Shown piece by piece: positions 10,621-40,392 of a DNA stretch of 64,000 nucleotides. A program made the position numbers and the translations under genes. The notes beneath the pieces were generated by a model that was not told the origin of the DNA, ran no database searches, and worked only from the letters and a program-made list of their open reading frames with translations. The first letter of the stretch is position 1. Each line of letters begins with the position of its first letter. The stretch covers positions 5,208,001-5,272,000 of the forward strand of contig JAPYXD010000742.1 in assembly GCA_030998225.1 (NCBI GenBank). Reading direction: 5' to 3'. The DNA comes from Diplolepis rosae. Its lineage: Eukaryota > Arthropoda > Insecta > Hymenoptera > Diplolepididae.

Positions 10621-11206
10621 ATGTCCATCATTAATACGCAACCACCAAAGCGAAAAATATACCCCGCTACCCTTCATCCAAAAGGGGGAGATAAATAACC
10701 TACGGTTCGCTAAGGGGCAGCTGGAGGAGCTGGCGGCAGAGTATAGTTTTACTACACCAAAATATACATTAGAGGAAACCACGGGAGCCAATAATGCAAA
10801 AAAATTCGTCGTTAGGTGCGAAGTAGAGGACCGCAGACGCGAAAATAAATTTAGTACCGTAAGCAACGGGGAAGGAAAAATACGTTGCGCTAAACACGAG
10901 GCCGCGAGAAAAATGTTAACGGCCCTTGAAAAATTGTATTTTTTTAGCGAAGTAAAAAATACTTGTAATATTAGGGACGAACAGTATGTAATTTGTATGG
11001 ACAACCCCGCGATTTTATTAATCAAGTTGTACAAATGGGAAACTTGCTGCGAGTATTGTTATTTGAGGGGCCATACTATGGCAAATTGTTAAAAACAAAT
11101 TAAAAGGAACAAGCGGCTTCTCGACGAACAGGAGCCAACAGAAGAAGACTTCTGGGGTCCTCCAAAAGGGGATGAAAATACAAATCTAATCTATCTGACG
11201 CCCTAA
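10621..11206 (+). pseudogene. Decayed dsRBD-zinc-knuckle accessory gene, unit 1
   Basis: This is the broken homologue of the intact gene at 25251-25835. One extra G in the run near 10683 shifts the frame after about 22 codons, so translation from the ATG at 10621 ends shortly afterwards. The dsRNA-binding frame itself stays open through the domain and into the CCHC knuckle, then meets a TAA directly after the last knuckle cysteine. About 20 residue differences separate it from the unit-2 copy, many more than in the nearly identical upstream genes. Confidence 0.75.
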
Positions 11207-11831: not shown

Positions 11832-13677
11832 ATGTACAACAGGATGATTATCCAGATCCTAGGCCAAGCAACAATGATCTGTACAGGAATACTACTCATC
11901 ATGGCAGGCACGTCAGGAAACCCACGGAACTACGAAGTCCAACCATTCTATAATAACCCAGGACTATTCTACGAAAAATTGGAAACTATCCGCACTACTC
12001 AAAACCATTAGAGGTTTGTTATATTCATGGACCCCCAAAAAACTACAGGAACATCAATTCGACAAAATGAAGTCAGAAATTTAGAAAATCTACAAAACAT
12101 GTCCAAATCGATTGAAAAGTACTGATTGCAAGGATATGATAAAATTGGATCGCCTCAATAAAAAGCTACACCAACTCGAAGTTACAAATGAGGATTTAAG
12201 TGAAATATTGATGGAATTACACCAGGACATACCCCATGACATAATCCCTCCCAGGACCATGCATAGGCGAAGAGCACCTCTTCTAGGATTCATAGGCAGT
12301 ATTCTAGGACCAGTAATAGGGGTAATGACTTCCGACGATGCAGAAGAATACAAAGAGGCAATAAATGACATTTATGAAAAGCAAAATAACATCAGTAAAA
12401 TAATTAGAAAATAAACCCACATAATATAAGCAGAAGTAAATAATATTCATCAGGATTTAAGCAAGTAAACTAAAAAAATTCAAATTATTCAAAAAGAATT
12501 AAATGAAACCATCCACAAAATAGAATCGCAAGAACAATATCAGAATGACTACATGTATTACGAAAAAATAATCCAATGGTAGACAAATTTGGAACTAAAA
12601 TTAGAACATTTATATGAAATAATAAAATAATTCATTAAAATAACAGAATACGCACGAGAAGGCAAATTACACCCTTCAACAATTTCTAAAGCCCAACTGC
12701 AAGAAGTAATCACTGAAATACACACTAAAATGGAAGACTACGAATTTCCGATTCCTACTTCATACATTAGAGTGGAATTACTTTCACAAATTGGCAAAAC
12801 GGACCTTAAAATTAAATCCGGAAAATTACTAATATCAGTAGACATTCCATTGCTAGATAGAAAAGCACTACAATTATATAAAGTTTACCCATTTCCTGTT
12901 TTCCAGGACATTTCTGGAGATTATACAAGAGCCGTCTACATTTCACCAAGAAAACAATATATTGCCCTGACAGAAGACGAAAGAAAATTCCTTTTGGCAG
13001 ATAAAGAGTACTACGACACCTGCCAGAAAACAATCTATCACACAATTTGCGAAAACACCCAACCAATACACGAAACAGTCACAACTACGTCCTGCGAATG
13101 TCTAATGCTTATACGCCCTTCAATGAAAATTTTACAGCAATGTGATATAACAATAAACACAAAAAATTCAGTTTCTTGGAAGCATATTCCATCCTTAAAC
13201 GCATGGATATTTTCAACTAAAAAACCAGAGCCAATCAGCATCACCTGTAAAAAGGGAAGAACATAAAAAGGACATATTATAAATTCAGGAATATTAAGAT
13301 TAAGTGCAGGGTGTATTGCCAGAACGGAACAGACAACTTTAATTGGAACTCAAATAAATGTAAACTCAGAAGAATTTATCTACAACCCCGGATTTTCGTT
13401 GAATATATCAAAAATTTCCCCAATAATCTATAAAACAATGCATATTCCGAAGATAAAATCATTTTTTTGGGAAACTGAAAAAGATGAAAAATTAAAAAAT
13501 CTGCATACGGAAGAATCACTCTCCACCATAGAAAAACAACTGCTCGACATGGAAAACAATCATTATAAACATAAATTAATCCAAAAATATTGGTTAGGAG
13601 GGTCTAGTATCCTGACCTTATTAATAATAACAACTGCTGTATACTTCACACAAGGAATTATCCGCAAAAACTTGTAA
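11832..13677 (+). pseudogene. env: Envelope (F-type fusion glycoprotein) remnant
   Basis: The N-terminus has a hydrophobic signal segment (MIIQILGQATMICTGILLIM). A TAG at 12009-12011 ends the first frame where a Trp is expected in the family. A frameshift near 12115 follows. The next frame carries a basic cleavage site (RRRAP at about 12267) and a fusion-peptide-like stretch (LLGFIGSILGPVIGV), as in baculovirus F and errantiviral Env. The same frame is interrupted by stops at 12412, 12427, 12466, 12580, 12628 and 13264. Cysteine pairs lie in the 12730-13266 segment, and a transmembrane segment (SILTLLIITTAVYF) lies near 13600-13645. The product once mediated membrane fusion; it cannot be made now. 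Confidence 0.8.
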
Positions 13678-14622: not shown

Positions 14623-16017
14623 CAATACTTATAAACCTTTAATCATCTAAATCAATTGAAACTGAGCCACATAATTAAGGGTTTCTCGGAACTATAATAA
14701 TTGATACCACAGTACTAGAACTAACTGCAGCGATGTTTCGAGTAATTGATTATTTAATGGGAAAAAGCCAATTTTTAGTCAAGAAAAATAATTACGAGCA
14801 TGGCAATTAATAAAGCTGTTCTTGATAATATCGGGTATTTCAAAACTCAACCACGAATTCTCAAGTATAAATTATCCGATCTGATCAATGAATAAGCTTG
14901 TGCCAGCCAACCTAACCTAAAAATGAACAATAAATAGAATCAGTAAAATAGTCATAATATTGATTCCCATAATTTAAATAACGGTCAGACAAAAGAAAAA
15001 GTGAAAATAAAAATTTAAGATGGAACTTCGGAAAACGCAGTTACTTCTAGTGGATTGAAGAAAATGGACCTTAATTTTCAATGAAAACAAAATGATTTGA
15101 CATTCTGGGCAACTGAAGTTTTGTGCAGTTACAGATAAGAGGAAATTCTGTTACAGAATTATAATTTTATGATGGATTATACAAAACTATGCTTCAGTTT
15201 CGTAATAGTATGAAAAATTCCAGAAAATGCAAGGTATTTTTGCAATTTTAAAATATATACTAAAAATCATCTCAAGTATCGTCAAATTTTACGTTAACCT
15301 TGTAACATAGAAATTTGGAGGTTTCCAACAGAATACGACGATAATAACAATAAGAAATAAACAATGATGTGTCCTTATTGTAATAAGAAATAATTTCTAT
15401 GGAATCATAGATATGTATGTATATTATGTGAATTATATGTATATTACACACACATATATATATGATGTTATGAAGGTATAACAAGGTATGGTTATAAAAA
15501 CCACTACCATGAAAGCCTCAATGAGCATGGCAGCACGACTGCTCCTCAAGCAGTATGCTGCCCTGCTGAAACTTTATTACTATGGTAGTCTAATCTGGGT
15601 GGTCCTATGTCGAAAATTGACGAAAATCATCTCGCAACCTGAAAATATCGTATTATCCGAAACCTATACAGCCTCAATTATGCATACCAATCGGATTGGG
15701 CTACATAGCTTTGGGTCTCCACATGCGTGTGTACACTCATACGCGTGTGTGTATACAGGTGTCTAAATGGGAGCAGCAATCACAGGTAGATGAGCCCATA
15801 ATTAGAAGTATAATATTCAGAACTAATAGCTAATAGTATAAACAATTTTAAGATTACAATTAAGTACTGTCACGCCATTTTTGGTACAAATTTCCATTCT
15901 ATAACGATCAACTCTGCTACCAAAGATGCTCGCAACAGAGATAAAAGAAAAAAAGGAGAAAAATAAATATATATAAACAAACCAGGTTTTCTTTTAACAA
16001 AAAAATCAAAAAGCAGC
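14623..16017. repeat. Second copy of upstream unit sequence
   Basis: Near-identical to 1-1394. Visible differences are single bases, such as AGTATG for AGTAAG and AACCAGG for AAAAGG. No gene is supported. Confidence 0.8.
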
Positions 16018-17087
16018 CTTGCGCTGCAGGTGTGGAGACGTGTGCTTCTGTGAGCGCTAGCAGTTCCAGCGCTCGGAAATGTGCCACCTCCTGCGCTCTC
16101 CTAGCAGCCTGGCTCGCTAGAGAGTGCTAGCACCTTCGAATTAGCCTATTTCGTTGCCCACCTTGATTCTCCCGGGCCATCCGTCGCCAGGTTTGGTGAA
16201 GTCTCCCCTGCTGGACAATTTCCGTCGACAGAAGGAGAACCCGGGCCAGGAACAAACCTGGGGAGCATCGTGGAAGGTTCCGTGGACGCCCCTGCACGCC
16301 TGAAACAGATAGACAAAAATAATTAAAAATTAATTAATTAAAATTAAAAATGAACGAAATAGGAGCCTTGATGCACCGCCCTGTTTAACACACCTAAGCT
16401 AACCCCACCACTAGACCTCGACATTTTAGGGCATCCTTACACCCTAAAATGTGGTGTTTTAGCTCCAGGGAAGCCACACGCAGTAGAACACCGGGACTCC
16501 TCGAATGGAGAACCCGTACCACGGCAAAGGAGTCTCGGGAGACTGAGGAGTCAACCAACTCCTGACAGGCCAGGGTCATCGATTCTATGGCCCGGCTGGG
16601 ATGAACACCGCGCACTGATACATAAAAAAAAACCCAATTTTTCTTCAATTTCCGATATTCGCACCTGCAGACTGTCGCGTCGCGGTACAAACACGGCAAT
16701 TTCACCGGGTGAGGAAGACGAACTGGAGGCACTCGGCTGTAGCAGGGAAAGATCAAAATCTAAAACCGAATCGGCAAACGCGTTTTCGCGGAGGGGTTCA
16801 GAGGAAGGAACCGATGATTGAGGACAAGAAGGCTCTCTGGTGAGCCGAACAACTCCGACAACAAGGCGTCCAGGAAGTCTCCGGAGTCTGACATGTTGAC
16901 CTGAACCAAGACACTACGCGAATGCGGCACTACCCGAACAAATTATGCAAATTGAAAAAGGGACACTTACCAGCTCCTTCAGGCACCGACGTAGCCCCCC
17001 TCACTAAGGAGAGCGGGTAGCCCTAGTTTGGCAGTGCTCTTCGTGAGTGATGGTCTCTGAGCTTGAAGATGATCCATCGTCTGCCAT
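16018..17087 (-). pseudogene. GC-rich minus-strand gene remnant (unit 2)
   Basis: Counterpart of 1395-2463. The exons correspond to 16018-16299, 16417-16900 and 16971-17087, with the same donor and acceptor words. An extra A in the run near 16629 puts the middle exon out of frame relative to unit 1, so this copy is additionally broken (unless it is a homopolymer read error). The product is unknown. Confidence 0.5.
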
Positions 17088-17507
17088 GGCTGCTGGAGAC
17101 TGAGGAGAAAATCATCCCTACGACCCAGCATGCAACGAGATGACATCATGTCAACCATGCAAAATCAGTCAAAAACCCCACCAAGGCAGAACTCCTAGGA
17201 AACACGTGCACTACAACAAAGAACAAGATCCAAAATTTCGCCATGTCAACTTCTACAGAAAACTGACTCATGGCAGCCGCAGCATAGCATCATTATCCAG
17301 CATCTTTAAAAAATGACATAATCTTACAGCAACTGCATCCTCGCATGTCACCGTTCTCAGGATACATATAGCCTAGTAGAAAAAACAAAGTACAAAGAAG
17401 AACGCCTTGTCAAATTATAGTGGAAACTACTTCAGCCCTTGCAAACATCAGCTTGCAGCTGCAATATGACATCACTATTCACTAAGGACTATTCACTTAC
17501 CAAGGAC
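17088..17507. other. Intergenic stretch before LTR B
   Basis: Copy of 2464-2883. There is no polypurine tract immediately before the LTR, so LTR B does not look like the normal 3' LTR of the provirus to its left. Confidence 0.6.
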
Positions 17508-19109
17508 TGTTACATCCCAGTAACTTTAAAATTTTTACATTGCCCCTGTGCAAGGGCAACACGCCACACACCAAGGAGAGAGAGGAAGGAATTATTTATA
17601 TAATAAGTGTTGCTATGGTGAATTATTATGTGGACCGGGTAGCTGTGCGCATAAGGTAAACCTATGTATACCTTACGTCGACGAATCGGCTTGACACATG
17701 GTATAAGAGATAAAGAAGAACAGCTCTCTGTCTATATGGTAATTGAACCCGTGGTAATGAGTCAGTAACTCACACCGCGTGCCGATAAAATAGTAGCGCT
17801 GTGCTAATAACCTAATGAGAGAATGAGAAGTTATCAGCACAGCCTCATTAAATATAATGTCTAAATATTATAAACATTATTATATTAATATTAATATTGT
17901 ATTAACATTATATCACAACTATTATTAATATCTCGGGTAGTAACATAGTATTGATCAATATTAGCGCCATTATGTATTGATTGCCGATAAGTCGATCACG
18001 ATCAATGAATGAAAAACGATTATTGATAATGGATCATAGATAAGGAATTGATTGACTGATCATTGGCAATCAATTAATAATCATAATTGGTAAAAGAAGT
18101 GATATAAATCATAGAAAAATAAATGCAGAAATAAGTAATTGAAAATGCATTTATTTGGAAACTAGATATAAAATTGGGCAATAGAAGAGATGAACCCATG
18201 AATTCTTGCAGAGATCGTGCCTGGCCACCGATTCGCAATTCGTACGTGCCTTGCCACCGATTTGCGATGATCTGATCCCACTAATAGAAGCATCAATAGT
18301 ATATATACCCCAAATTTACCTCTGGTGGTTTGTCATTAAGTTCCGAACAGTTGTACGGTTGTTAGGTCCGGACCGGTAATTCAACGTCGTGAGCAGACCC
18401 TTCGATAAACGTAAGTCTCATTGGATTTCTATGAGCAACTCAACATTCGGTACTTGGTAAATAAAATCCTTGGTCCTTAAGTGGTGCAAGTCCGGAAACC
18501 GTAGTCCTAGATAGTTCCATTGGATTGCGTGCATCGTCGTATCTAGTCGTGTCAGTTAATAGTGATTCATTTCTGAAATCGGGACGAACTAACCTATCTT
18601 GTTAACAAGTGCATGTTTGATTCATTTCTCGTGTACTTAGCAAGATACGTAAGCGGATAATTGATCACATCAGTTGCTGGTGGACTTGCATCCCTTACAC
18701 CATACCTCCTGCAAGATTTATCGTTGTTTTGCTACTTCACGGAGACTCAAACGAAACCCAACTATCCTGCAAGAATTTGTGCCGCTGACTTGCAAAAATA
18801 GAAGTAAAAAACGTCAATTCTCTCTTTTGTCCTCTAATTTAAGAGGTAGACAAGTAAGTTACCAACTAAGTATCATTTTATGAAAATTTGTGCAACAACT
18901 CATCTATTTATAATAAATTACCTCATATATTCGTAAATTCAGTGTTTTATTGTCATTGTGAACGACTCAGGGCACATAGACCTGACAAGTGACAACGTAC
19001 CCACAAACAAAAATAAATTATCAGGCCTTACCAACCTGATATAATAAGCTAACCGCCTCCCTTACATCCAAAATCCAAACTACCCTCGCCTTTTGCTCGG
19101 GACGTAACA
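17508..19109 (+). repeat. E1 LTR B
   Basis: Copy of 2884-4486 with the same TGTTACATCCC...GGGACGTAACA termini, one base shorter. It is followed by the same tRNA-Leu primer-binding site, so it acts as a 5' LTR for the second unit. Confidence 0.85.
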
Positions 19110-21529
19110 GCTGATTTGGTGGCAGCGGTGGGATTGTCACTTTTGTTGTCACAATTGATAATAATTTAAAAATTATTTAATTGAAGCTAATCAAAAGTAT
19201 ATGTGCAATTATTTCGAATAAAAATTGTACATAAATAAAAGCTTCGAAATTTAGGAATTTTCAAAATTACAAAATTATAAGTTTAGTAGAAATAATTAGA
19301 TAAGATATAAAATCTATATTTTATAAATATTTCTACTCGTCAAAATTTACATAATTGGAATTAAATCTTAAAATAAATTATTTTATTTTAAACGTTGGTA
19401 TACTTCGTGTGATCACAAGCTCTGCCATCGTCAATAACATCAGCGAATTACCCTGAATAAACCTTGCATGTATTCTTTGTAGCAAGATTGTGCAAGTGAA
19501 GGGTTTAAAAAGTATAAGAGAAAGTAAAACATCATTATTTTGATTTAAATCAATTTAAAGTTCAGAAGTTTTTCTACCTAGAGTTTACGCAGGCAATTGT
19601 GTCTCAACTATTACCTGAATAAACTTATAGTATTAAAACATTGAATATTTAAATTCAAAATATTAAAATTATCTGAATTTCTGAAAGTACCTACTAAAAT
19701 TATACAAGGTTTTCAGCTTGAGCCTGGCTTGTCTAATTTCGTACTACTGAAATTTTCAAATTGTTAACTAAGTTTGAATTTAAGTTCAAAACAAAACAAA
19801 AACAGCACACGAGAGTATAAGTCCTTTTTAGATTCGTTGAACGGTCACCATCGATGACGATCGACTGGGTAAGACAAAGTTCGAAGTGTCTGCATTGTAA
19901 TTGTTTATAAATTTCATTTTAACATTGTTAACTAACAGAATATTTTTGATTGCAAAGATTGTCCAAGAATCTGTGCTTGAGTCTAGCTTGTCCAATCTTG
20001 CACCTCTAAAATTCTGTGACATTAAACAAATTTTTTGTTTGTTTATTAACAATAAACATTTTCTGTGATTTTAAAGATTAATTAAGGGTTTGTGCTTGAG
20101 TCTGGCTTAATTAATTTTGTATCACCGAAAACGCAAGTTGTTGATACATGTAACCAAATTATAAATTCAAATATTGCAAAAATTTGCTCAGAAATTCGCG
20201 GTCGCGGCTGGCCTGACCCGCCTTATATCACTGAAAGCATATAATCCAAGGTTAAATGCTGCAGCGACTGCGCGCGCCACAGCAAGAATTTGCTGTGCAG
20301 TAATAGCTAAGACAAATCATTGACAATAGTAGTTCAAAAATTAGTATTACCGCACCCATTTAACAATAAACAATTACAGACGAATAAATAAACGAATTCA
20401 GCAATAAATAAAATTTTCTAAATTAACAATTAAAAACAAAAATTCAAGGTAACTACGATATTATAGTATATAATAATAATTGAATTATAATAGTTTTTTT
20501 TATATAAATTCACCACTTTGAAGAGATTCTCATACAAAACGATAAAGAATCAATTTCAATACTATAACAGCTGATTTGCTAGCAGCAATCAAAATTCGCG
20601 ACCATACGGTCAAGGCAACCAAGGAAGAAGAAATTAAGGTCTACAGAATAGTTTATCAAAATTTTAAAAATCAAAAAATTCTGAATTTTACTCACAAAAG
20701 GAATTTAGGGACAATTATATAAAATATTATGATCCGGAATAAGTTGCAAAATTATGATCGGTAAATTACAATTAAAAATAAGAACACAGAGATAAAAATT
20801 ATATGGCACATAAAAACTCACATATAGTGTTTAAACACGATTCAAACACTATAATTTCAGTTATTCCGACTTATTAAAAAGCAAAGTAGACGACTTTTTA
20901 TACGACCCAAATTTAACAATTAATCTAATCCAGGAGGAAAAATTAGCCTCTTTTAACAATATCAATCATCTCAAAATTTACATTATACACAATGCCGCCC
21001 TTACAACAAGTGGTGTAGTAAAAATTCCCATATTGGAGCAAGAAATCGAATTTAACATTATAAATCCAGAAATAGGTACAAGCATATCCGGAGTAATTGG
21101 AAAATCGTTTCCAACCCTTTTCAAAATAAATATTCCGCACAAAGTCTAAATATTTCTTAGAAGAATTATAATACTGGAAATAAATATAACTATACTAATA
21201 ATAACAATAAACATTTTATATAGGACAACTTAATTTTGGAAGGACTAATTTTGGGGTTCGAAAACAAATTTTGACATTACACTGACAATTTAATTAACTT
21301 ATTAATTTTTTTTTTTAAATCAATAATAGTTGATAATTAATAGTATTTAATTTAATTAATTTAATTAATTTTTGAAAAGGTCAGTTTTTATCATTAATCA
21401 AAATAAGGTATAAGGTATTAAATTCAATATAATCTTACACACAAGGAGCATTCGAAACTACCGTTTTCTGGAAAAACTATATTATAACGGATTGCATTTA
21501 ACTTGAAGAATAACTAAAAATAAATCAAA
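19110..21529 (+). promoter_or_regulatory. E1 leader, unit 2
   Basis: Near-identical to 4487-6901. The conserved block is at about 19761-20000 and the three hairpins are at about 19696-19740, 19955-20000 and 20074-20119. The upstream ATG of unit 1 is ATA here, so the gag ATG at 21530 is the first in that context. Confidence 0.65.
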
Positions 21530-22582
21530 ATGCCCCACGACAAAAATAGAACCACTCATGGCAAAACGCAGGGTGGAGAGTTCACAGGGAACATCTCACG
21601 CACCCTTAGTGACGCCATGGTCACTTCAATGGCGGAATGTTTTGCTATACAACAGGGAGTGATGAATATACCCACTTTTAACGGAAAAAATATGCCAGTT
21701 AGGGACTTTATTCAAGATGTTTTAAACGGAGAATCCAGTGTACCTGAAAATTGCGAAAGGCAGTACATAATGGCAGTACTAGCGCGATTAAAGGGTGCTG
21801 CAAGAGATAGTACTCACGGAAAAACATTTTCCACAATAACCGATTTAATACAGCATTTTAAACAACGCTTTGCCCCCCACAAAACTTACTCGTGGCATTT
21901 GCATGAGATATCTACAATTAGGATGTCTCACAGCGAAAGTGTAAGCGAGTTTTATGACAGAATCACCCTACTTAAATCCGGAGCTCAAGCAGCGTTAGAA
22001 GACAAATATCAGAACGCGGAGCAAATGTTACTACCCTTAAATGATTGCGCCTTAGAAGCTTTCATCCGAGGACTACCCGATGTAATATCTGGGATGGTGG
22101 AATCACGAATTCCATCGTCATTGGAATCAGCATTAAAGTATATAGGATCAACAGATAGAAGCCCGAGCCCTCGTGTTAGGTTTGCGTCATCACCGGATAG
22201 GAATAGAGCCATGGAACCCAGACAAGGACCAACAGGGATAATAAGGAGACCTACATCACCAATAGTGCCTAATTACCCAAATAATTACGCACCTCCATTT
22301 CAATACCCACCTTATTTACCCTATCAACCTTATCCGTACTATCCAGGTTCGCTCGCATCAAACAACCCTCACCCTAACCACAATTACCCATATAAAGGAA
22401 CTAATACACCCCCGAGAGCACAATCACCCGCTCCAGCTAATAAAAATGATTTAAAATTCGACTCCGCTCGCCGAACAGACGCGACGACGAGCGTGGAGAA
22501 AACAACGCGTCACAACAGCGTGAGATTTCTCAAGAAGCAAGAAAAATCTTCTGTACCAAACTCAGTCGAGAATCCCCAGTAG
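21530..22582 (+). CDS. gag: Gag polyprotein, E1 unit 2
   Basis: This 350-residue protein has the same translation as the unit-1 copy: a capsid-type helical middle, a Pro/Tyr/Asn-rich tail and no zinc knuckle. The frame is intact and ends in two consecutive TAG codons. It could still supply particle protein in trans if transcribed. Confidence 0.85.
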   Translation: MPHDKNRTTHGKTQGGEFTGNISRTLSDAMVTSMAECFAIQQGVMNIPTFNGKNMPVRDFIQDVLNGESSVPENCERQYIMAVLARLKGAARDSTHGKTFSTITDLIQHFKQRFAPHKTYSWHLHEISTIRMSHSESVSEFYDRITLLKSGAQAALEDKYQNAEQMLLPLNDCALEAFIRGLPDVISGMVESRIPSSLESALKYIGSTDRSPSPRVRFASSPDRNRAMEPRQGPTGIIRRPTSPIVPNYPNNYAPPFQYPPYLPYQPYPYYPGSLASNNPHPNHNYPYKGTNTPPRAQSPAPANKNDLKFDSARRTDATTSVEKTTRHNSVRFLKKQEKSSVPNSVENPQ

Positions 22583-23403
22583 TAGAGCTGTCGTCGAATG
22601 AACTTTTACAGTCAAAGGCAAGGTTTCTAGTGGACACAGGTGCGGACATAAATGTTATTAAATTTGATGCTTTACATGAGGACCTACTGGTCAATGAAAA
22701 TGTAGCAATAGAAATCACAGGAATCACACAAAGTAGAATTTAGACCATAGGCACTGTAAACAGCGAATTAATGAAATCTAAAATCACTTTTCATGTTGTA
22801 CATTCTGATTTCACCATAAGCCCAGATGGAATATTAGGTCGAGAATATCTTCGACAAGAGAAGGTGGAAATATCCTTTTGGCATAACACCATTGTGACGC
22901 ATTCCAACCCCACAAAACCTATACCGTTCATAGACAATGAATCTGGAGTAGCGTTAGAGAATACCACAGATTACAAAGGACCTCTACTAGGACCAATTAA
23001 GGTAAGAGCCAGGACTCGACGAGTTATTCCAGTAGCAGTGATAAATTCAGAATTAAAGGAAGGGTACTTACCCTTAATAAAAACTACAGAGGGCGTGATA
23101 GTAGGCGAAGCAGCCGTAACCAACTTGAATGGAATTTGTCATCTATTTGCTATTAACACCACAGATGATGATCTCGAAATAGAATTACCCCCGCAAGAAA
23201 TCATCCCCTTTGAATATTACAAATTTCCAGGAGAGGATTTCGACGAATACTCCACCGACGAAGATTATTCACCCCCAGTAAATAAGGCTGAAGAGGTGAT
23301 AAAACACCTTCGACTAGATCATTTCAACCCCGAGGAAACGGAACACGTACTAGAGATAATTAGAGACTTTCCTGATAATTTTTCCTTCCAGGAGAATCCC
23401 TAA
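22534..23403 (+). pseudogene. pro: Protease plus start of Pol, E1 unit 2 (one stop)
   Basis: Same as 7906-8775: the DTGAD active site, then the shared in-frame TAG at about 22741-22743, then an open frame to 23403. It lies in the -1 frame relative to gag. Confidence 0.75.
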
Positions 23404-23566
23404 CCCCAACACATTTAGTACGGCACAGAATCCAACCCCGGATGCTTTAGAGAAATATACCCCCTCAGCACTAAGAAAATCTAGGGCTATTTCCACGCCC
23501 TTTCCTGAAAAACTTGATAACGACCCTAATTTTAATCTATCAACTGACAAAAATAGTACTCGCAGA
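23404..23566 (+). other. RT/RNase H deletion scar, unit 2
   Basis: Identical to the scar at 8776-8938, showing the deletion predates the tandem duplication. Confidence 0.7.
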
Positions 23567-25207
23567 ATGGGAATAAATATACCTATATACTCAGACGAAC
23601 TTACTATGGATACCACCATTTCGCCGTCTGACCATTCGCGATCGTCGATCACTTGCATCCCTCCAGCACTGCCTAAGGCCTGTGAAATGTCCAGTAGAAC
23701 GGAAACGCACAGTAGTAAAAACGTGCAGGCCAGACTAAATAGCTGTCGAGAGAATCTCACTTATTTAAAAAGTAACTACGTACATTTTCTCTCGGCTGAC
23801 TGTGAGTTTGTCGCCCCCGTGAGCCGACTACTAGTGGACTTGGGAGCAGTGGACCCTCAGGACCTGAAAGATAGGAAACCTAAAATACGAAAAGTGCTTA
23901 TCACTCCTCATAGACGCTTTAACATATATTCACTCATAGTTAAACAAATCCATTTTGATGAGATAAACGAGGAATACGTTAAGGTAGCCGTGCATAATTT
24001 GAGAATAGCTTTAGAAAAGGAAAATATTTCGGAATTTCACATTTCAAAACATGGAGATTTTGGTGCCACATTACCTAAAGGAAAATTGCGCGAGTTACTA
24101 ACTCAAGAATTCGCCAATTCAAAAATAGAAATAACGATATGTTATGGCAACGTAAATATACCCCCAGAGGAGTTACGTACTCAAATTATTTCTGAAAATC
24201 ATGAGGGTAAAATTGACGGGCACAAAGGGATGAATAAAACATATCGAAGAATTAGAGAAAGATACATGTGGCCAGGACTAAAAGATCAAGTTATTGAATT
24301 TGTCAGAAAATGTGACATTTGCCAAAAACAAAAAATTGTACGGGCTAAAATCCATGAACCCATGTCAATCACCGATACACCCCTCGACACCTTCGACAAA
24401 GTATCCCTAGACACAGTAGGGAAATTTCCTAGCAGCCTCGACGGTAATAAACATATTCTCACTATGCAGGACAATTTATCTAAATACTGTATAGCCGTCC
24501 CCATACCCGATATTTGAGCAACTACTATCGCTCATGAAATAGCAAAGCATTTATTCTCACAATATGGAGCCCCGAGGGCCATACTCACAGACAGGGGAGG
24601 AAGTTTCATCAATAATTTACTCAGAAAATTATCAAAAATTTTCGGGGTAAAACAAGTTACCACCTCTGAATATAGATCGCAATCAAACGGATCCCTGAAA
24701 AGGAGCCATGCCGTATTGATGGACTACATAAGGATGTATGCAGAAACCTATGACGATTGGGACCAACTTTTACCCTTCGCGATGTTTGCATACAACATCT
24801 CAATACATGAAGTCACTAAATTTACACCCTTTGAAATAGTATTTGGTAAAACCGCCCGCACACCCAGTTTATTTCCAGACCCTGAAAGATTAGAAACCTA
24901 CGAGGCCTATCTGCAGGAATTAATATTAAGACTATCGGAAATTAAATTGATAGCAGCAAAAAATTTGATCACTGCGAAGGAACATTCAAAAGAAAATTAT
25001 GGTCGAAAGGTAAAACCAGTTTTAGGAAATGTAGGAGATCAAGTATACGTCCAAAGGGAAGTTAAAACACGCGGAAAATTGAATAATAAATATCTCGGAC
25101 CCTACACTCTTATAACAATATTAGACGAAAACAACGCCATCTTGGAAAAACCCGACGGAAAACTATTCCAAAAACATTTTAATAAACTTAAGATAGTGAA
25201 TAACTAA
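23567..25207 (+). pseudogene. int: Macrodomain-like linker and integrase, E1 unit 2 (one stop)
   Basis: Macrodomain-like residues correspond to about 23777-24148. The HHCC zinc finger, the first catalytic Asp, the second Asp (in AILTDRGGSF) and the GPY/F-type tail are all in one frame. The only interruption is a TGA at 24515-24517 shared with unit 1. The 2-nt loss of unit 1 is absent. The catalytic Glu is Lys here too (SNGSLKRSH), so the enzyme should be inactive even if the stop were read through. After about 25041 the sequence diverges from unit 1. Confidence 0.8.
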
Positions 25208-25221
25208 AAATTAAAAATTAT

Positions 25222-25243
25222 TAACCGCAATTTTCTTTTACAG
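25222..25243 (+). promoter_or_regulatory. Splice acceptor before the intact dsRBD gene
   Basis: A TTTTCTTTTACAG tract ends at 25243 and the ATG follows at 25251. The same word is kept in unit 1, where the flanks differ, so the site looks selected. Confidence 0.65.
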
Positions 25244-25250
25244 AAAAATC

Positions 25251-25835
25251 ATGTCCATCATTAATACGCAAGGACCAAAGGGAAAAATATACCCCGCTAT
25301 CCTCCATCCAAAAGGGGAGATAAATAACCTACGGTTCGCTAAGGTGCAGCTGGAGGAGCTGGCGGCAGAGTACAGTTTTACAAAACCAAAATACACGTTA
25401 GAGGAAACCGCGGGAACTGATAACGCAAAAATTTTCGTCGTTAGATGCGATGTAGAAGACCGCAGACGCGAAAATAAATCCAGTACCGTAAGCAACGGGG
25501 AAAGAAAAACACGTAGCGCAGAACATGAGGCCGCGAGAAAAATGTTAACGGCCCTTGAAAAATTGTATTTTTTTAGCGAGGAAAAAAATGATTGTAATAT
25601 TAGGGACGAACAGTACGCAATTTGTATGGACAACCCCGCGACTCTATTAATCAAATTGTACAAATGGGAAACTTGCTGCGAGTATTGTTATTTGAGGGGC
25701 CATACTATGTTAAATTGTAACAAACAAATTAAACGAAACAAGCGGCTTCCCGACGATCAGGAACCAACTGAAGAAGACTTCTGGGGTCCTCCAAAAGGGT
25801 ATGAAAATACAAATCTTATCTATCTGACGCCCTAG
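25251..25835 (+). CDS. Intact dsRNA-binding domain plus CCHC zinc-knuckle accessory protein
   Basis: This 194-residue protein lies between integrase and the position of env. Residues about 27-105 fit a double-stranded-RNA-binding domain: helix 1 (FAKVQLEELAAEYSF), beta strands (PKYTLEETAGTDNAKIFVV, RCDVED), then helix 2 (RKTRSAEHEAARKMLTAL) with the AA..ML pattern typical of the family. Residues 143-156 are a perfect C-x2-C-x4-H-x4-C zinc knuckle (CEYCYLRGHTMLNC), the type missing from this element's Gag. An acidic, aromatic tail follows. The ATG lies 8 nt after a strong splice acceptor, implying expression from a spliced mRNA. Known dsRBD proteins of viruses often sequester Dicer substrates; a silencing-suppressor or RNA-packaging role here is inference. 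The unit-1 copy is broken. Confidence 0.8.
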   Translation: MSIINTQGPKGKIYPAILHPKGEINNLRFAKVQLEELAAEYSFTKPKYTLEETAGTDNAKIFVVRCDVEDRRRENKSSTVSNGERKTRSAEHEAARKMLTALEKLYFFSEEKNDCNIRDEQYAICMDNPATLLIKLYKWETCCEYCYLRGHTMLNCNKQIKRNKRLPDDQEPTEEDFWGPPKGYENTNLIYLTP

Positions 25836-26053
25836 AGAAGTTTTCCTTTAATATAAAATTCATAGAATACAACTTAGCTAGTAAAATTCGCTAGGAAACC
25901 CCTACTATTCATCGACAGATGCATTACCACTAATGTTATAACAAACAAACTTCGTCATTATTATCTTTCAACTCATAAAGTTATATATTATAGGATTAAC
26001 AAAGTTATAACTAGTTAGCATTACTCATGATTCACATCATATATCACTACTAG
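25836..26053 (+). other. Truncated end of E1 unit 2
   Basis: Diverged homology to 11207-11420 continues and stops at about 26053. The env gene is absent from this unit. Confidence 0.65.
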
Positions 26054-29059: not shown

Positions 29060-30135
29060 ATATATATATATATATATATATTGTATATATTGTGACAACA
29101 AAAATAGAATTGAGTTAGTTATGACAACACTGTAAACGAATATTGTAAATATAGTATTGCTATATTAAATAAACAACATAAAATGGACATATCTTTTTTT
29201 ATTTACCCTTACATGTCATTACATTATTTAACATTAACTGAACATCATTTTAATTTCATTTCAACATTGATTCAACAATGATTCAACAATGAATCAACAA
29301 TGATTCAACAATGATTCAACATTGATTCAACATTGATTCAACATTGATTCAACAATGATTCAACATTGATTCAACAATGATTCAACATTGATTCAACAAT
29401 GATTCAACAACGATTCAACATTGATTCAACAATGATTCAACATTGATTCAACATTGATTCAACATTGATTCAACAATGATTCAACATTGATTCAACATTG
29501 ATTCAACATTGATTCAACAATGATTCAACATTGATTCAACAATGATTCAACATTGATTCAACAATGATTTAACATTGATTTACATGTCTGACTTTGCTAT
29601 CCAGCTATTGTGTGAACTATCAAAGCCGAGCCACTTAACATAAATCGTATTGCCACGTTTTTTAAGAACCTGCTCTACAAGGTAAATATCTGGGTACTTG
29701 ACTTTGAGAAGTTCTTGTTCATAGAAGCCGCCAGGGATGGATTGATCCTGTTAGTCCTTGAGTTTGTACGTTATAGGATTGGTTGAAATGACATGATCCA
29801 CCGTGAATATCTCTGTTGTCCAATTTGGGGTGTATCCTTTCTCGAAAACGTTCTTGAACTTACTGACTCGAACTTTATCACCAATTTTAAATTTAGGTCG
29901 TTTCGGAATCATTTTTTTTTTGTTTATGAAAACGTTGCAATAGTACCTCCTCATCTATAGCGGTGACATCTTTAGGTTTCATGCCAATGGTTCGGTGCTT
30001 AGAATCGTTTTATTCGGAAACTAGAGTGGACAAGATATCTACCCACTTATAGTTGCTTTGTAAGCTGAATTGTATCCACATTTTGTTCTTGAGTGTGCGA
30101 TTAAATCTTTCAATGATTGATGCTTTTAGATTACT
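29060..30135. repeat. Left arm of 1-kb inverted repeat in Polinton fragment
   Basis: This arm mirrors 30793-31706. From the outside in, both arms hold a TA tract, about 150 bp of unique sequence, an ATTCAACA(A/T)TG minisatellite, and the chromodomain and C-terminal half of an integrase. The two arms are separated by about 650 bp. Lengths differ mainly in minisatellite copy number. Confidence 0.8.
29258..29579. repeat. Minisatellite, 11-bp unit
   Basis: About 29 tandem copies of an 11-mer alternating ATTCAACAATG and ATTCAACATTG, directly after the integrase stop codon. The mirrored array at 31345-31510 has about half as many units. Confidence 0.9.
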
Positions 30136-30796: not shown

Positions 30797-31345
30797 CTAA
30801 AAGCATAAATCATTGAAAGATTTAATCGCACACTCAAGAACAAAATGTGGATACAATTCAGCTTACAAGGCAACTATAAGTGGGTAGATATCTTGTCCAC
30901 TCTAGTTTCCGAATAAAACGATTCTAAACACCGAACCATTGGCATGAAACCTAAAGATGTCACCGCTATAGATGAGGAGGTACTCTTGCAACGTTTTCAT
31001 AAACAAAAAAAAATGATTCCGAAACGACCTAAATTCAAAATTGGTGATAAAGTTCGAGTCAGTAAGTTCAAGAACGTTTTCGAGAAAGGATACACCCCAA
31101 ATTGGACAACAGAGATATTCACGGTAGATCATGTCATTTCAACCAATCCTATAACGTACAAACTCAAGGACTAACAGGATCAATCCATCCCTGGCGGCTT
31201 CTATGAACAAGAACTTCTCAAAGTCAAGTACCCAGATATTTACCTTGTAGAGAAGGTTCTTAAAAAACGTGGCAATACGATTTATGTTAAGTGGCTCGGT
31301 TTTGATAGTTCACTCAATAGCTGGATAGCAAAGTCAGACATGTAA
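30797..31345 (+). pseudogene. Duplicated integrase C-terminus and chromodomain
   Basis: This plus-strand fragment begins at the catalytic Glu region and reads through TLVSE-TAA, then MKPKDVTAIDEEVLLQRF, the FKIGDKVRVSKFKN segment, a TAA after YKLKD (31172-31174), and a chromodomain with YVKWLGF ending at TAA 31343-31345. The A-run frameshift of the other arm is absent. Both in-frame TAA codons are shared by the arms, so they predate the inverted duplication. Confidence 0.75.
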
Positions 31346-31510
31346 ATCAATGTTAAGTCATTGTTGAATCAATGTTGAATCATTGTTGAATCAATGTTGA
31401 ATCAATGTTGAATCATTGTTGAATCATTGTTGAATCAATGTTGAATCAATGTTGAATCAATGTTGAATCATTGTTGAATCAATGTTGAATCAATGTTGAA
31501 TCGCTGTTGA
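31345..31510. repeat. Minisatellite, inverted copy
   Basis: About 14 copies of TTGAATCA(A/T)TG, the complement of the 29258-29579 array. Confidence 0.9.
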
Positions 31511-31708
31511 AATGAAATTAAAATGATGTTCAGTTAATGTTAAATAATATAATTACATGTAAGGGTAAATAAAAAAAGATATGTCCATTTTATGTTGTTT
31601 ATTTAATTCAGCAATACTATATTTACAATATTCATTTACAGTGTTGTCATAACTAATGCAATTCTATTTTTGTTGTCACAATATATACAATATATATATA
31701 TATATAAT

Positions 31709-33502: not shown

Positions 33503-34160
33503 AAATCTAAACGATATTTTTTTTCTTTAAAAATTGTTACTAACAAATAATTTAACTTACCTTTTGATTGATTTTATCCACATTTTGTCTTTTTTTTGGA
33601 AACACCCCTCTGATTTGAAAGTACAAACGAATAACCGGCACAGAAAAAAAAACGGCATAGAAAAAGTGTTAAGAGGCGTTGCGCATAAAAAATATTATCA
33701 GCATAGACTGTCAGCTTGGTCGGAAAGTAGGGTCTCTGATGTATCAATTGAGATTTTTTTTGGCATATACAGTTAGAGCTACTCGATGTCATCCCCCCTT
33801 ATGAAAACCCCTAAAATTTTCTCCATTTCTGCGTATCTCTTACCGTTTTCGAGATATTTCAAAATTTTGATTTTGAAGGGGTGACCTTGAATTAATATAT
33901 ATATATATATATATATACAAGAGACATGCCACAGCACACTCTAAGCTTGGTCGGTAAGTAGGGTCTCTCATATATCAATTAAGAATTTTTGCATATAAAG
34001 TTAGAGCTACATTACCAAACCAGCAATCTACAATACCGAGCAGCAATCTACATTACCGACCAAGAGGGATTTGGTTGGTAGCTCCATCTGTTGGGGCTTA
34101 GCATGGACAAGAACCTACTCGGTCGGTAAGTTGTGCCGAAGTGGCATAGCTCTACTACTT
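33503..34160. other. Flank between Polinton fragment and satellite
   Basis: No gene. There is a TA microsatellite at 33895-33918. A block of about 75 bp with the word CTTGGTCGG(A/T)AAGTAGGG is directly repeated at 33710-33780 and 33945-34012, and TTACCGACCAA words follow near 34050. Confidence 0.6.
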
Positions 34161-36656
34161 AACTGCAAACAAAAACAAAATTCAATTTTTGCCCCTCTCT
34201 GTAAGTTTTCTAGATAATTTGACGAGTTTGTCCATAAGTGGCTTCTCGGGGTGAAACTATTAAAATTTTGGTCTCGCTCCGCAAACATAAATTATTATTT
34301 TTAATTTTTTTAGATGCAGTAAAACGTGACTGTAATCGAAAAGCAAATTCAATTTTTGCACCCCTCTGTAAGTTTTCGAGATAATTTGATGAGTCTGTGC
34401 ATAAATGGCTTCCCGGGGTCAAACTCTTAAAATTTTGGTCTCGTTCCGCAAACATTAAATTTTGTTTTTTATTTTTTTAAATGTAGTACACTGTGACTGC
34501 AATCAAAAATAAAATTCAAATTTTGCGACTCTCTGAAAGTTTTCTAGATAATTTGACGAGTTCGTCCATAAGTGGCTTCTCGGGCTGAAACTATTAAAAT
34601 TTTGGTCTCGCTCCGCAAACATAAATTATTATTTTTAATTTTTTTAGATGTAGTAAAACGTGACTGTAATCGAAAAGCAAATTCAATTTTTGCACCCCTC
34701 TGTAAGTTTTCTAGATAATTTGACGAGTTTGTCCATAAGTGGCTTCTCGCGGTGAAACTATTAAAATTTTGGTCTCGTTCCACAAACATATATTATAATT
34801 TATATTTTTTTAAATGTAGTACACTGTGACTGCAATCAAAAAGAAAATTCAAATTTTGCGACTCTCTGAAAGTTTTCTAGATAATTTGACGAGTTCGTCC
34901 ATAAGTGGCTTCTCGGGCTGAAACTATTAAAATTTTGGTCTCGCTCCGCAAACATAAATTATTATTTTTAATTTTTTTAGATGTAGTAAAACGTGACTGT
35001 AATCGAAAAGCAAATTCAATTTTTGCACCCCTCTATAAGTTTTCTAGATAATTTGACGAGTTTGTCCATAAGTGGCTTCTCGCGGTGAAACTATTAAAAT
35101 TTTGGTCTCGTTCCACAAACATAAAATTTATTTTTTCAAATGTAGAACACTGTGACTGCAATCAAAAACCTGCAGTCAATTTTTACGCATCTCTGTAAGT
35201 CTTCGAGATAATTTAACGAGCTTCTCCATAAATGGCTTCCCGGGGTCAAACTTTCAAAATTTTGGTCTCCTTCCGCAAACATAAATTTTAATTTATATTT
35301 TTCTAAATGTAGTAAAACGTGACTGAAATCGAAAAGCGAATTCAATTTTTGGGCCCCTTTGTAAGTTTTCGAGATAATTTGACGTGTTTGTCCATAAATG
35401 ACTTCGCGGGGTCAAACTTTTAAAATTTTGGTCTCGTTCCACAAACATAAATTATTGTTTTTTTTTTTTTTAAATGAGGTAAAACGTGACTGCATTCGAA
35501 AAGCGAATTCAATTTTTGTGCCTGTCTGTAAGTTTTCGAGATAATTTGATGAGTTTGTCCATAAATGGCTTCCCGGGGTCAAACTTTTAAAATTTTGGTC
35601 TCGTTCCACAAACATAAATTTTAATTTATATTTTTTTAAATGTAGTACACTGTGACATCAATTAAAGCCAGAAGTCGTTTTTTGCACCCCTCTGCGAGTT
35701 TTCGAGATAATTTGATGAGTCTGTGCATAAATGGCTTCCCGGGGTCAAACTTTTAAAATTTTGGTCTCGTTCCGCAAACATTAAATTTTGTTTTTTATTT
35801 TTTCAAATGTAGTACACAGTGACTGCAATCAAAAACAAAATTCAATTTTTGCGCCTCTCTGTAAGTTTTCTAGATAATTTGACGAGTTTGTCCATAAATG
35901 ACTTCCCGGGGTAGAACTTTTAAAAGTTTGGTCTCGTTCCGCAAACATAAATTATAATTTATATTTTTCTAAATGTAGTACAATGTGACTGCAATCAAAA
36001 ACCGAATTCGATTTTTGCGCCCCTCTGTAAGTTTTCGAGATAATTTGATGAGTTTGTCCATAAATGGCTCCCCGGGGTCAAATTTTGAAATTTTGGTCTC
36101 GTTACACAAACATTAAATTTTATTTTTTATTTTTTTAAATGTAGTGCACTGTGACTTTAATCAAAAACCAAATTCAATTTTTGCACGTCTCTGTAAGTTT
36201 TCTAGATAATTCGACGAGTTTGTCCATAAATGATTTCCCGGGGTAGAACTTTTAAAATTTTGGTCTCGTTCCACAAACATAAATTTTAATTTATATTTTT
36301 CTAAATTTAGTAAAACGTGACTGCAATCAAAAACCGAATTCGATTTTTGCGCCGCTCTGTAAGTTTTCGTGATAATTTGATGTGTTTGTCCATAAATGGC
36401 TCCCCGGGGTCAAATTTTTGAAATTTTGGTCTCGTTACACAAACATTAAATTTTATTTTTTATTTTTTCCAATGTAGTACACAGTGACTGCAATCAAAAA
36501 CAAAATTCAATTTTTGCACGTCTCTGTAAGTTTTCTAGATAATTTGACGAGTTTGTCCATAAATGACTTCCCGGGGTAGAACTTTTAAAATTTTTGTCTC
36601 GTTCCGCAAACATAAATAACAATTTATATTTTTTTAAATGTAGTACAATGTGACTG
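34160..36656. repeat. 167-bp satellite array, left part
   Basis: The word GTCCATAA(A/G)TGGCTTC recurs at 34230, 34397, 34564, 34731, 34897 and 35064, giving a 166-167 bp period. Alternating monomer variants (loop words AATCGAAAAGCAAATTC and AATCAAAAACAAAATTC) make a dimeric period of about 334 bp in 34210-35100. Open frames across it are by-products of the repeat. The array is cut at 36656 by the G2 insertion and resumes at 48032. Confidence 0.9.
36653..36656. other. G2 target-site duplication, left
   Basis: ACTG at 36653-36656 is repeated at 48032-48035. Removing 36657-48035 rejoins the satellite monomer cleanly (GTGACTG then CA). Confidence 0.85.
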
Positions 36657-37510
36657 TGTCACGTCCCGCGACGTATTTGAATGTATATAATACACACAGG
36701 CTGGATTGAGTTAAGAAATCTATGAGGAAATCGATAAAGGGGAATAGGGATTAGGGGAAGTAGGGAGCCGTATAGGGCCCCTTCTCCTCTAAGAAGATAT
36801 GACTACGTCACGATTTTCGCTGACCGTCAATTTGTATGAAAAAATATAAAAGAGGCCCACACCAAGAGAAAGAAGTCAGTAAATTCTTCGTCTAGTTCGA
36901 TACTTAAATTTTCCTTCGGATTTATAACCGGTCTCGCGACAATAGTCCAGTGCGGCATTTCAATTTAACTTCGAAAATCTCTGAGTTTGAGATCAATAAA
37001 ATTCGACCGAGACAATTTAAAATCCAAGTTCGGGAGTCGTAAAAGTCATCGTGGACTTGTATAGATCTTTGTAAAGATCTTCGAACAGTGTCATAAATTT
37101 GGATCACCGCCCTTTACGGAATATAACTGTGCGGCCTCTAACTCCGTCTCTTTCACACACTTGGACTACACCTGTGGGGATCCAGTACTTACAACTCACC
37201 GCCGTGTGGATTAAACCTCAACACAACTTACGAATCATAAAGGTACCGAACCTCTCTCTCTCTATCTTTATTCTATGTCTCTTTCTCACCTACGTACCAA
37301 CCAGCCTGTGCCTACATTATACAAGAATTGTCTTAACGAATGTATATCCGGAAATTTTAACCAGTAAAATAAATTCAATTTGTATTATTTTCATAATCAT
37401 TGTGTCTTTCATTGACTTATCCTCATCCCTAAGCGAGGATCATTCGATCCTAACTTAAAACGAGGAATCTTCGATCAAAGTAAGTATATTTGCGTACTTG
37501 TGACGTAACA
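36657..37510 (+). repeat. G2 5' LTR
   Basis: 854 bp, TGTCACGTCCC...GTGACGTAACA. A TATAAAAG box at about 36846 lies inside, with an inferred transcription start shortly after. Its last 200 bp and first 230 bp match the 3' LTR with only a handful of mismatches, so insertion is recent. Reading frames within it are not supported as genes. Confidence 0.9.
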
Positions 37511-38598
37511 TACTTCCTTTTTTCTGGTGCATCGGCCCGGGAAACACAAGTCAATTGAAAATTAACACATTGATTATTTCTAGTGAATAAATAAATGATT
37601 ATGAAATATTATTTCAACTTGTAACTTGAAATTTCAATAAAATAGATTTGTTAGATCACAAAGGGATTTGACCTTGAGGCTAACCTTAATGATTTAATAA
37701 TCAAATCATTTCTTTGAAATTTTATAATTTATATAAATTGTATAAAATAAAATAAGTTTGAAAAATCACGCAGGGATCTGACCTTGAGGCTAACCTAAGT
37801 GATTAAGTAACTTATCTTATTTAAAAAGATTATTCTAATTTGTTAACTAAGTTTTGATTTAAGTTAAAACAAACAAAAAAAAACAGCACACGAGAGTATA
37901 AGTCCCTTTTGGGTACGTTGAACGGTCACCATTGATTACGATCATTGGGTAGGGCAAAGTTCGAAGTGCTTGTGATTGTATTGTTTATAACTTTAATTTT
38001 AACTCTGTTAAGGAACAGAATATTTTTATTTGCAAAGATTGTCCAAGGATCTGAGCTTGAGCCTAACTTGTCCAGTCTAGAAAAAAATAAATTGTGCATA
38101 ACTCGAATCTTATCTGATCCTTGTTATAAACAATTTTATTTATTTAAAAACAATTTATAATTCAATAAATTAATAAAATAGATCATTATAATTTACAGGA
38201 CACACGTGGTTGGTACAAAATATATATATATACATTGTTATAATTTTAAGAAATGTATTATTTAACATTATAATTTTACAAAAATTTAGCGATTATTTAT
38301 TTATTTGAATATTTTATAGAATTATATTTTTATTTTATATCTTATTTCCTAATGAAAGAGTAAAAATATCAATTATTGTTATAAACAAATAAAAATAATT
38401 AAATTATATTTTGAAATTATTATTATAATTTTTTTTTGAATTTTTATAAATTAAAATTATATTTTTACTAATTTCACTTTATTTACAAACAAAATTTTAC
38501 ATGTAGTTTTTTTAAATTGGTATAAACAATCGATAATTAACAATAAATAATCTAAGATAACGCTCAACAAAAAGAAACTGTAAATTTATAATGACTCA
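37511..38598 (+). promoter_or_regulatory. G2 5' leader with structured RNA block
   Basis: This is 1.1 kb of AT-rich non-coding sequence. Hairpins at 37651-37692, 37763-37804 and 38034-38079 share the loop word CTTGAGSCTAAC. The block 37836-38079 aligns closely with E1 leader 5135-5376. After 38080 the sequence is almost pure A/T up to gag, with a TA run at about 38220. Confidence 0.65.
37525..37543 (+). promoter_or_regulatory. G2 primer-binding site, tRNA-Gly type
   Basis: TGGTGCATCGGCCCGGGAA begins 14 nt after the LTR. From memory, its first 13 bases are complementary to the 3' end of insect tRNA-Gly(GCC), with one extra C after that. Confidence 0.65.
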
Positions 38599-40392
38599 AT
38601 GTCAAATTCAAATACCCCTGTAGGATCCGCCCAAAAAGTTATTACGCGTAGTAAAGCAAAACAAGACAATCAACTCGCAAAAATTGTCGATCAGAATCAA
38701 ATAGATTCCTTGAAACTAAAAAGATCAGGTAAAATCAAAGAAAATTTAGTCGATTATAATAAATACAAGGATATTTCAAACACTTTTTCTGCTGAATAAG
38801 AATTAGATAACACTCTTCAGATAGACGATTCTCGTTTTGACAAGACTCTAATTAATGATCAACGCATATCAAGTGAAAATTCTAGTAAAACTAGCGGATT
38901 TCATTCAAGTTTCTGTCCAGATTTGAGCATTGTGACAGGATCTAGTAATCAAGATCAAACTTTAACGAACGAGTTATCTTATTTTGACGGATCTAATTTG
39001 CTAAGCTCAACGGTAATAACAATAGAAAATAGAACTTTGAAAGAAAAATTGAAAACCTCATTGGCACGCGACTCTCTAATTAGTAACAATGATAGCGACG
39101 ACGACAAAAGCGATACAGAAGTCATAAATCAGAATAATCCCGTAATAGTAAACAACGAAGAGATGGCCGTAGCCATACCTAACAGCCAGCAGGTATCCTT
39201 ACGCGACGCGCTAGAGGTGGTCCCTTTGTTCGACGGAAGTAACCTCCCATAGTCCCATTTTATTGAGGGTTGCATGGAAGCAAAGGCAATGCTGCCGACA
39301 CCTGCTGCCCAAGAAAATCTTGCACGTCTATTGAGAGGTAAATTGTCTGGTGAGGCACGAACATGTATTTTTGGGTCAACGTATACAACAATAGAGGAAT
39401 TAATAGAAAAATTGAAAAGAGTATATGCCCCTGCGAAAAGCGTATATCAATTGCAGGGAGAATTAGGTAATACATTTATGTGGGAAAGAGAAAATGTCCT
39501 TTCCTATGTTGCTAGAATTAAAGAAATTGCTGATAGAATAGAAGATGCTCACAGACTTAATAATGACGGTCAGGTAGATAATGCTTTTAAACAAAATTTA
39601 GAAAGAGATGTAATTCAATGTTTTATACGCGGTTTGCGTCCTGAGTTAGAAATTCGTGTAGAAGAAAAGGACACATTTAAGGAAGTAATTAATGATACAA
39701 TAGACATAGAACGAAGATTGGCTGCAAGTTCTGCACTGCGAAGAAATAAAAATACTGATTATTTAAAAACCGAAGAATCAACTAATAATAATTAAAATAA
39801 TAAAACCACCCGATTCAACGTAGCACTTGAAAATAAAACTATTTGTTTAATTTATAAAAAACCAGGTCACACAACTGAAAAATGTTTTCATTTGAGTAAA
39901 GCTCAATATGCAGTTCTTAACAATAAACAAGAAAAATTTTTGCATCCTAACCAACAAGGATATAGTCATTTCAATGGCCAAAGAAGTAATAATAATAATA
40001 ATTTTGCAAAAAACAATTACAATAATTTTCCAAATAACAATTTTTTAAGAAATAAAAATTATAATTTTAATAATAACAACAATCATTTTTTACAAAATAG
40101 AAATAATAATTATAAAAACAATAATAATAATTTTTTACAACAAAGATACAACAATAATAATAATTTTCCTAGAAATTTTTACAATAATAACAATAATGTT
40201 AATAATGCTAATAGACAATTGAATCCACGACAGTATAAAAACTTTAACTCAGGACAGTTCCAAAATCGAAGTAAACCATATGAAAATAGATTTTTACAAA
40301 ATAATAACACTCAACAAAATTCAAATTATACTGAAATAATTTGCAATTACTGTAAACAACCCGGTCGTTTAGTACGAGACTGCAAGTTATGA
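38599..40392 (+). pseudogene. gag: G2 Gag (three in-frame stops)
   Basis: One continuous frame interrupted by TAA at 38797, TAG at 39250 and TAA at 39793, with no frameshift. The N-terminal third is acidic and serine-rich. The capsid-type domain spans about 39220-39740 (EVVPLFDGSNLP, LARLLRGKLSGEA, CFIRGLRPELEIRV). Two zinc knuckles are each missing one ligand: CLIYKKPGHTTEKC (second Cys is Tyr) near 39843 and CNYCKQPGRLVRDC (His is Arg) near 40345. A long asparagine-rich linker separates them. The ATG at 38599 follows closely after the leader. Gag would form the particle; this copy is unlikely to do so. Confidence 0.8.

Follow-up and report, generated by a model that had tools for sequence, protein, structure and literature searches.

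An env-bearing, errantivirus-like Gypsy lineage in the genome of Diplolepis rosae carries a conserved accessory gene between integrase and env, which codes for a dsRNA-binding domain (dsRBD) and a CCHC zinc knuckle and is held under purifying selection in two subfamilies, and of this we are nearly certain. The gene is described here from a 64-kb window (the whole stretch of DNA that was analysed, C414:5208001-5272000), in which two copies of the element are seen, and from further copies elsewhere in the same genome. The features of the window that bear on the gene are the following, with positions counted from the start of the window.

25251..25835, + strand: accessory gene, 194 codons plus stop (translation, Pfam, alignment, structure model)
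25335..25562, + strand: dsRBD, residues 29-104 (Pfam profile and fold)
25677..25718, + strand: CCHC knuckle, residues 143-156 (sequence pattern)
25224..25243, + strand: pyrimidine tract and CAG resembling a splice acceptor, ending 7 nt before the ATG (YAG spacing conserved)
21530..22582, + strand: gag without a knuckle (Retrotrans_gag, E 2e-4; its 22 bits fall slightly short of the curated cut-off, 24.1)
22594..23403, + strand: protease-region remnant (tblastn; query, pol of the third Gypsy element in the window)
23360..25207, + strand: integrase in two open pieces, 23360-24517 and 24518-25207 (Pfam, tblastn)
10621..11206, + strand: second copy of the accessory gene, disrupted by an inserted base and a stop right after C156
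12085..13677, + strand: Baculovirus F-like env pieces in the first element copy (Baculo_F profile; 13267-13677 by position only)

An intact gene of 194 codons had been proposed in a sequence-only reading of this DNA, and the frame at 25251-25835 is indeed open without a stop, with no ATG ORF of at least 194 codons appearing in 20 Markov-1 simulations of the window. Its product runs from an N-terminal segment through the dsRBD, a beta linker and the CCHC knuckle to an acidic EEDFW tail. The element copy that holds it (14623-26053) repeats positions 1-11425 of the window at 98.9%. As far as 25041 the two copies hardly differ (about 10.4 kb with 7 substitutions and 10 gapped columns), but from 25042 onwards, over the rest of the match, they diverge by roughly 10%. 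This abrupt switch in identity (25041/25042, or about 10412 in the first copy) falls inside the integrase end, and it reflects recombination, gene conversion or an assembly join. After the first element copy, env is recognised by matches of Baculo_F to 12631-13266 (E 3.5e-21) and 12085-12414 (E 2.3e-4, below the cut-off), and none was found after the copy that bears the 25251-25835 gene. Searched by tblastn, the pol of the window's third Gypsy element matched the integrase at 23978-25192 with 40% identity, and neither this search nor Pfam gave a reverse transcriptase match in either window copy. A search of the wasp's own genome gave one more accessory-gene match, at C414:5204001. It precedes the first window copy by 14.62 kb, and the second window copy follows the first at 14.63 kb; judging by these spacings, the units would form a tandem array, three or more in number, two of which the window shows as sequence. 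No LTR-like direct repeat was found within the 14.6-kb unit, which is itself tandemly repeated. Upstream of gag there is a 104-codon open stretch (20835-21149 and 6210-6524, + strand) that, in a single comparison, resembled the third Gypsy element's protease region along 75 residues (33%, E 1e-5), with DPN where the protease has DTG; it may be a remnant or an extra ORF.

Across the genome (758 Mb, 428 contigs), at least 150 scored matches to the accessory gene were obtained among 1,747 first-look candidates. Twenty-four of the best 30 matches are stop-free, the other six carrying stops, and so are 34 of the 42 matches at 46-50% identity (counted by eye). Gene order was read at 50 loci, a non-random set composed of the best 30 (L001-L030, with L001 the window's own copy) and of 20 picked by hand from those 42 matches (L031-L050). 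The placement of the gene between integrase and the env position, likewise claimed from the letters, is borne out by this set: Integrase_H2C2 lies upstream in the window (E 2e-20; rve, at E 0.0015, falls below its cut-off), integrase is found upstream in 50/50 loci, and env pieces are found downstream in all except L001 and L007, giving the order INT-dsRBD-env in 48/50. Since the loci were sampled by the accessory gene, this count says nothing on the share of env-bearing elements without it. At one locus (L048, C154:3970686-3975731), integrase and the accessory gene share a single open frame of 1,798 codons, apparently a natural pol-dsRBD fusion that arose via deletion.

Both subfamilies show purifying selection on the accessory gene. 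By the Nei-Gojobori method, in which the pairs are non-independent, its median pairwise dN/dS was 0.245 (24 copies) and 0.321 (19 copies) in the two subfamilies, within the range of integrase (0.171, 14 copies, and 0.247, 13 copies) and env (env2 piece, 0.276, 17 copies, and 0.253, 14 copies; env3 of the second subfamily, 0.188, 11 copies) from the same loci. Stop-bearing or short copies were left out of these estimates (accessory gene, 6/30 and 1/20; integrase, 16/30 and 7/20; env2, 13/30 and 6/20; env3 of the second subfamily, 9/20). Pooled pN/pS, calculated from stop-free copies of one length only (21/30 and 17/20), was 0.240 in frame for the 21 copies, where the shifted frames gave 0.944 and 1.854, and 0.289 in frame for the 17, where they gave 0.761 and 1.706; the two window copies alone gave 0.28 in frame and 1.12 and 1.02 in the other frames. 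The exclusion of stop-bearing copies biases such values towards constraint, but we do not think that it could yield a frame difference as large as this. The constraint is uneven along the gene: by segment, pooled pN/pS was 0.63 in the linker of the second subfamily and 0.43 and 0.40 in the N-terminal segment of the two subfamilies, and in neither subfamily did pN/pS give a sign of positive selection. Compared with the window's sequences, the accessory protein of the second subfamily is 46-49% identical (20/20 loci), its integrase 65-69% in 16/20 loci (50% to 76% in the other four) and its env3 piece 58-62% in the 17/20 loci showing env3; the accessory protein thus diverges faster than integrase or env3, as expected of a host-facing protein. 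The same ORF therefore recurs in many genomic copies and evolves under constraint, by which an orphan, unconstrained ORF is ruled out.

Protein searches returned 59 proteins, of which three RNase III proteins (P0047, P0059 and P0060) were left out, leaving 56 relatives, many of them fragments; two of the relatives (LOC127287195 and LOC127286104) come from Leptopilina boulardi, a figitid wasp (Hymenoptera). Contig searches of viral and other-genome contigs returned no related DNA. The alignment comprises 25 of 57 sequences, namely the window protein and 24 of the longer relatives, with identity to the window protein down to 34%. Relatives at 34-42% identity keep the same domain order, and common to the family are KLYKW or a like motif before the knuckle, FSEE after the dsRBD and, in members reaching it, an acidic EEDFW/DEFW tail (F177 in 21/25, with 4 gaps). 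The tree splits the family into several clades, its deepest forks being weakly supported. Two relatives, P0043 and P0044, are joined integrase/accessory-gene fragments like the locus with the single long frame.

Upstream of the start codon, a pyrimidine-rich stretch and a YAG end at 7 nt in 47/50 loci (28/30 and 19/20 by subfamily; that of L049 was read by eye), 46 of which continue to an ATG, whereas L013 has ATA; the YAG is absent at L019, L030 and L048. By a crude measure, 114 of the 3,282 AGs in the window are equally acceptor-like, so the signal lies in conservation at one place and not in strength. Errantivirus env RNA is spliced, and the accessory protein would, we infer, be translated from a spliced subgenomic RNA using the YAG just before its ATG.

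As a fold, the dsRBD that the sequence-only reading had proposed is certain on profile and model grounds. The dsrm profile (PF00035) matches residues 31-101 at E 4.9e-5 (24.3 bits, above the curated cut-off of 23) and is matched at E <= 0.1 in 25/25 aligned family members, the 25-row family profile finds TARBP2 (E 1.3e-8) and Loquacious (E 1.2e-6) among solved chains, and the structure model has the alpha-beta-beta-beta-alpha fold of a dsRBD. The best solved fold matches include many dsRBDs of the small-RNA machinery (TRBP, Loquacious, DRB4, Dicer-like, R2D2 and RNase III) together with Staufen and ADAR1, and insect DNA viruses supply the top two viral matches, both of them stand-alone DRBM proteins. 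In a first structure model, built from 15 rows, the C-terminal half was unresolved; the 25-row model adds strands at 106-112, 121-125 and 128-138, and we claim no fold for this half, since it was barely compared with known folds.

The leading reading of the gene, to which we give a probability of roughly 0.45, is that it helps the transcripts of the element to evade small-RNA processing. The dsRBD would hold on to duplex or hairpin regions in the RNA of the element itself, or to the Dicer/Loquacious/R2D2 machinery by which such regions are recognised, the knuckle would add a single-strand or sequence preference, and the transcripts would in this way escape being processed into small RNAs. Pointing to such a role are the dsRBD sequence and fold, with small-RNA-machinery dsRBDs and insect-virus DRBM proteins among the matches, as well as the fixed INT-dsRBD-env order, the constraint, the conserved YAG and the faster divergence of the protein. 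Weighing against it are a Glu in place of the third contact Lys, the loss of GPxH in the window's clade, a low charge and the lack of any sign of positive selection; besides, the main silencers of Gypsy elements are piRNAs, for which dsRNA is not required. On the favourable side, however, siRNAs act on insect endogenous retroviruses beside piRNAs, according to the available part of a review of host control (PMC4246233).

The knuckle bears on a second explanation. A pattern scan located it exactly as claimed (C143-x2-C146-x4-H151-x4-C156), with two occurrences in the six frames of the 64-kb window, one in each element copy, where 20 simulated windows average 0.1; a chance ORF and a chance knuckle are both ruled out by the Markov-1 simulations. 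The pattern being confined to the two accessory-gene copies, the element's Gag has no such knuckle, as the sequence-only reading had said. All four knuckle residues are intact in 21/23 aligned sequences that span it, one Cys being missing from each of P0009 and P0058, and among stop-free copies every residue is kept in 23-24 of the 24 from one subfamily and in 18-19 of the 19 from the other. A nucleocapsid or RNA chaperone that acts in trans is a serious, though doubtful, competitor to small-RNA evasion: knuckle and dsRBD would recognise structured genomic RNA (a dimer or packaging signal), or aid the exit of unspliced RNA from the nucleus, and replace the knuckle of Gag. CCHC is the nucleocapsid signature, the knuckle weakly resembles that of dArc1 (E 0.05 to 0.19), and residues 138-165 are the most basic segment in 17/23 spanning members (tied in 4, not so in 2), all of which would suit this explanation, as would the knuckle-less Gag. 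Yet we know of no other dsRBD in a nucleocapsid. Nor is a replacement needed, for a Gag with zero CCHC arrays has been described for several errantiviruses, at least in the accessible portion of that work (PMC2774666), so the missing knuckle calls for no explanation. Of the original interpretation, a dsRBD fused to a CCHC knuckle in an env-bearing Gypsy element stands, while the suggestion of a nucleocapsid function moved out of Gag is weakened.

How far the domain would bind RNA at all depends on its contact residues. We take the canonical dsRNA-contact positions to be a Glu in helix 1, the GPxH loop and the KKxAK motif; this motif is kept in TRBP, and in the window protein E91 occupies the place of its third Lys. 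Position 91 is a Glu in 22/25 aligned sequences, and ordinary dsRNA binding therefore cannot be assumed. The GPxH loop is variable (across the 25 sequences, G55 is kept in 23, P56 in 17 and H58 in 11) and is not retained in the window's own clade, and the net charge of the dsRBD ranges from -1 to +6 across aligned members. Given the Glu at 91 and the GPxH loop lost in one clade, the dsRBD might have turned into a protein-protein module, for example a decoy on the partner site of Dicer with little RNA binding of its own, and several of the best fold matches are dsRBDs solved as protein pairs (DRB7.2:DRB4, the Dicer-TRBP interface and Miranda/Staufen dsRBD5). We consider this unlikely: helix-1 E36 is kept in 24/25 sequences (one gap), and a basic residue is present at 88 in 25/25 and at 86 in 19/25, so that RNA contacts are partly kept, while the partner is putative and a shared fold shows no function. 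That the gene is a captured, functionless hitch-hiker, or a host gene that was domesticated and lies in elements by chance, is most improbable and largely refuted, since the stops in 6 of the best 30 copies and the reverse transcriptase found in neither window copy stand against the purifying selection seen in both subfamilies, the constant place of the gene within the element and relatives at 34-42% identity with the same domain order.

Set beside known systems, the element resembles errantiviruses (env-bearing Ty3/Gypsy elements such as gypsy and ZAM) in its knuckle-less Gag, H2C2 integrase and Baculovirus-F-like env after pol, and differs from them in having one more gene, the dsRBD-CCHC one, after integrase and before env. 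Among solved structures, the sequence profile best matches the dsRBDs of TRBP and Loquacious, which are cellular proteins that have several dsRBDs and no knuckle. Small virus-encoded dsRBD proteins are also known from Tipula oleracea nudivirus and Iridovirus Liz-CrIV, whose DRBM proteins were compared by fold alone and superpose loosely on the first, weaker model (rmsd 9.8 and 7.7 over 134 and 108 columns). Accessory ORFs of insect Gypsy elements have been described in the MDG1 group, where, in the available text, sORF1 and sORF2 belong to neither Gag nor Pol, have low non-synonymous rates, lie upstream of gag and are predicted to encode a helix-turn-helix protein and a small membrane fusogen-like protein (PMC11952523); the window gene, by contrast, lies downstream of integrase and has an RNA-binding fold. 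Helicase domains of insect retrotransposons are a further accessory domain proposed to act on RNA silencing, and weak silencing-suppressor activity is reported for them in the part of the paper at hand, but they are Superfamily 1 helicases inside a polyprotein and not dsRBDs (PMC6338049). Troyka was dropped as a Gypsy-like comparison lineage, as it has no env and none is recorded in insects in the accessible text (PMC12440569). Within the open-access library searched, outside which most subscription papers lie, we found no report of a dsRBD in an errantivirus: "dsRNA-binding" beside errantivirus refers, in the passages available, to host Loquacious and R2D2 (PMC4246233), and the available portions of two recent papers on insect endogenous retroviruses contain no such gene (PMC13172572, PMC12992720), "dsRNA" in the latter denoting RNAi hairpins. 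Thus, accessory ORFs in insect Gypsy elements were already known, and what is new, within the reach of these searches, is the dsRBD-CCHC architecture.

The usual account of insect retroviruses gives them gag, pol and env and no other gene, and places them under piRNA control. A conserved accessory gene with a dsRNA-binding fold would mean that some carry a protein aimed at, or borrowed from, the small-RNA machinery. We tentatively propose that an insect endogenous retrovirus lineage came to possess a dsRBD-zinc-knuckle silencing suppressor of its own, expressed by splicing in the manner of lentiviral accessory genes, and that this may have helped the lineage to reach a high copy number and to spread among insects, including Hymenoptera. 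If true, the protein would be to retroelements what the suppressors of Dicer-2 are to RNA viruses. The question whether endogenous retroviruses use proteins of their own against RNA silencing becomes directly testable, and the gene serves as a marker for finding this Gypsy lineage in other genomes.

Elsewhere in the window, the third Gypsy element occupies 36656-48034, its end pieces being repeated (36656-36884 equals 46838-47066 at 98%), and has a 1,082-codon frame with reverse transcriptase and RNase H and a lysine/glutamate-rich extension that weakly matches an AT-hook, below the cut-off. By tblastn this element gave no match to the accessory gene, and between its integrase and 3' repeat there is no ATG frame of 120 codons. 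A transposase-like ORF (47196-47726, labelled by reading) seemingly lies within its 3' end. Satellite arrays at 34153-36657, 48031-49755 and 50240-51612 repeat with a shift of about 167 bases and are roughly 81-91% alike. Finally, an inverted repeat (29414-30131 with 31511-30795, 97%) bears on both arms a tandem repeat with an 11-base step (29221-29580 and 31345-31511), which adjoins ORFs that read like the DNA polymerase B and integrase of a Maverick/Polinton, again a label by reading.
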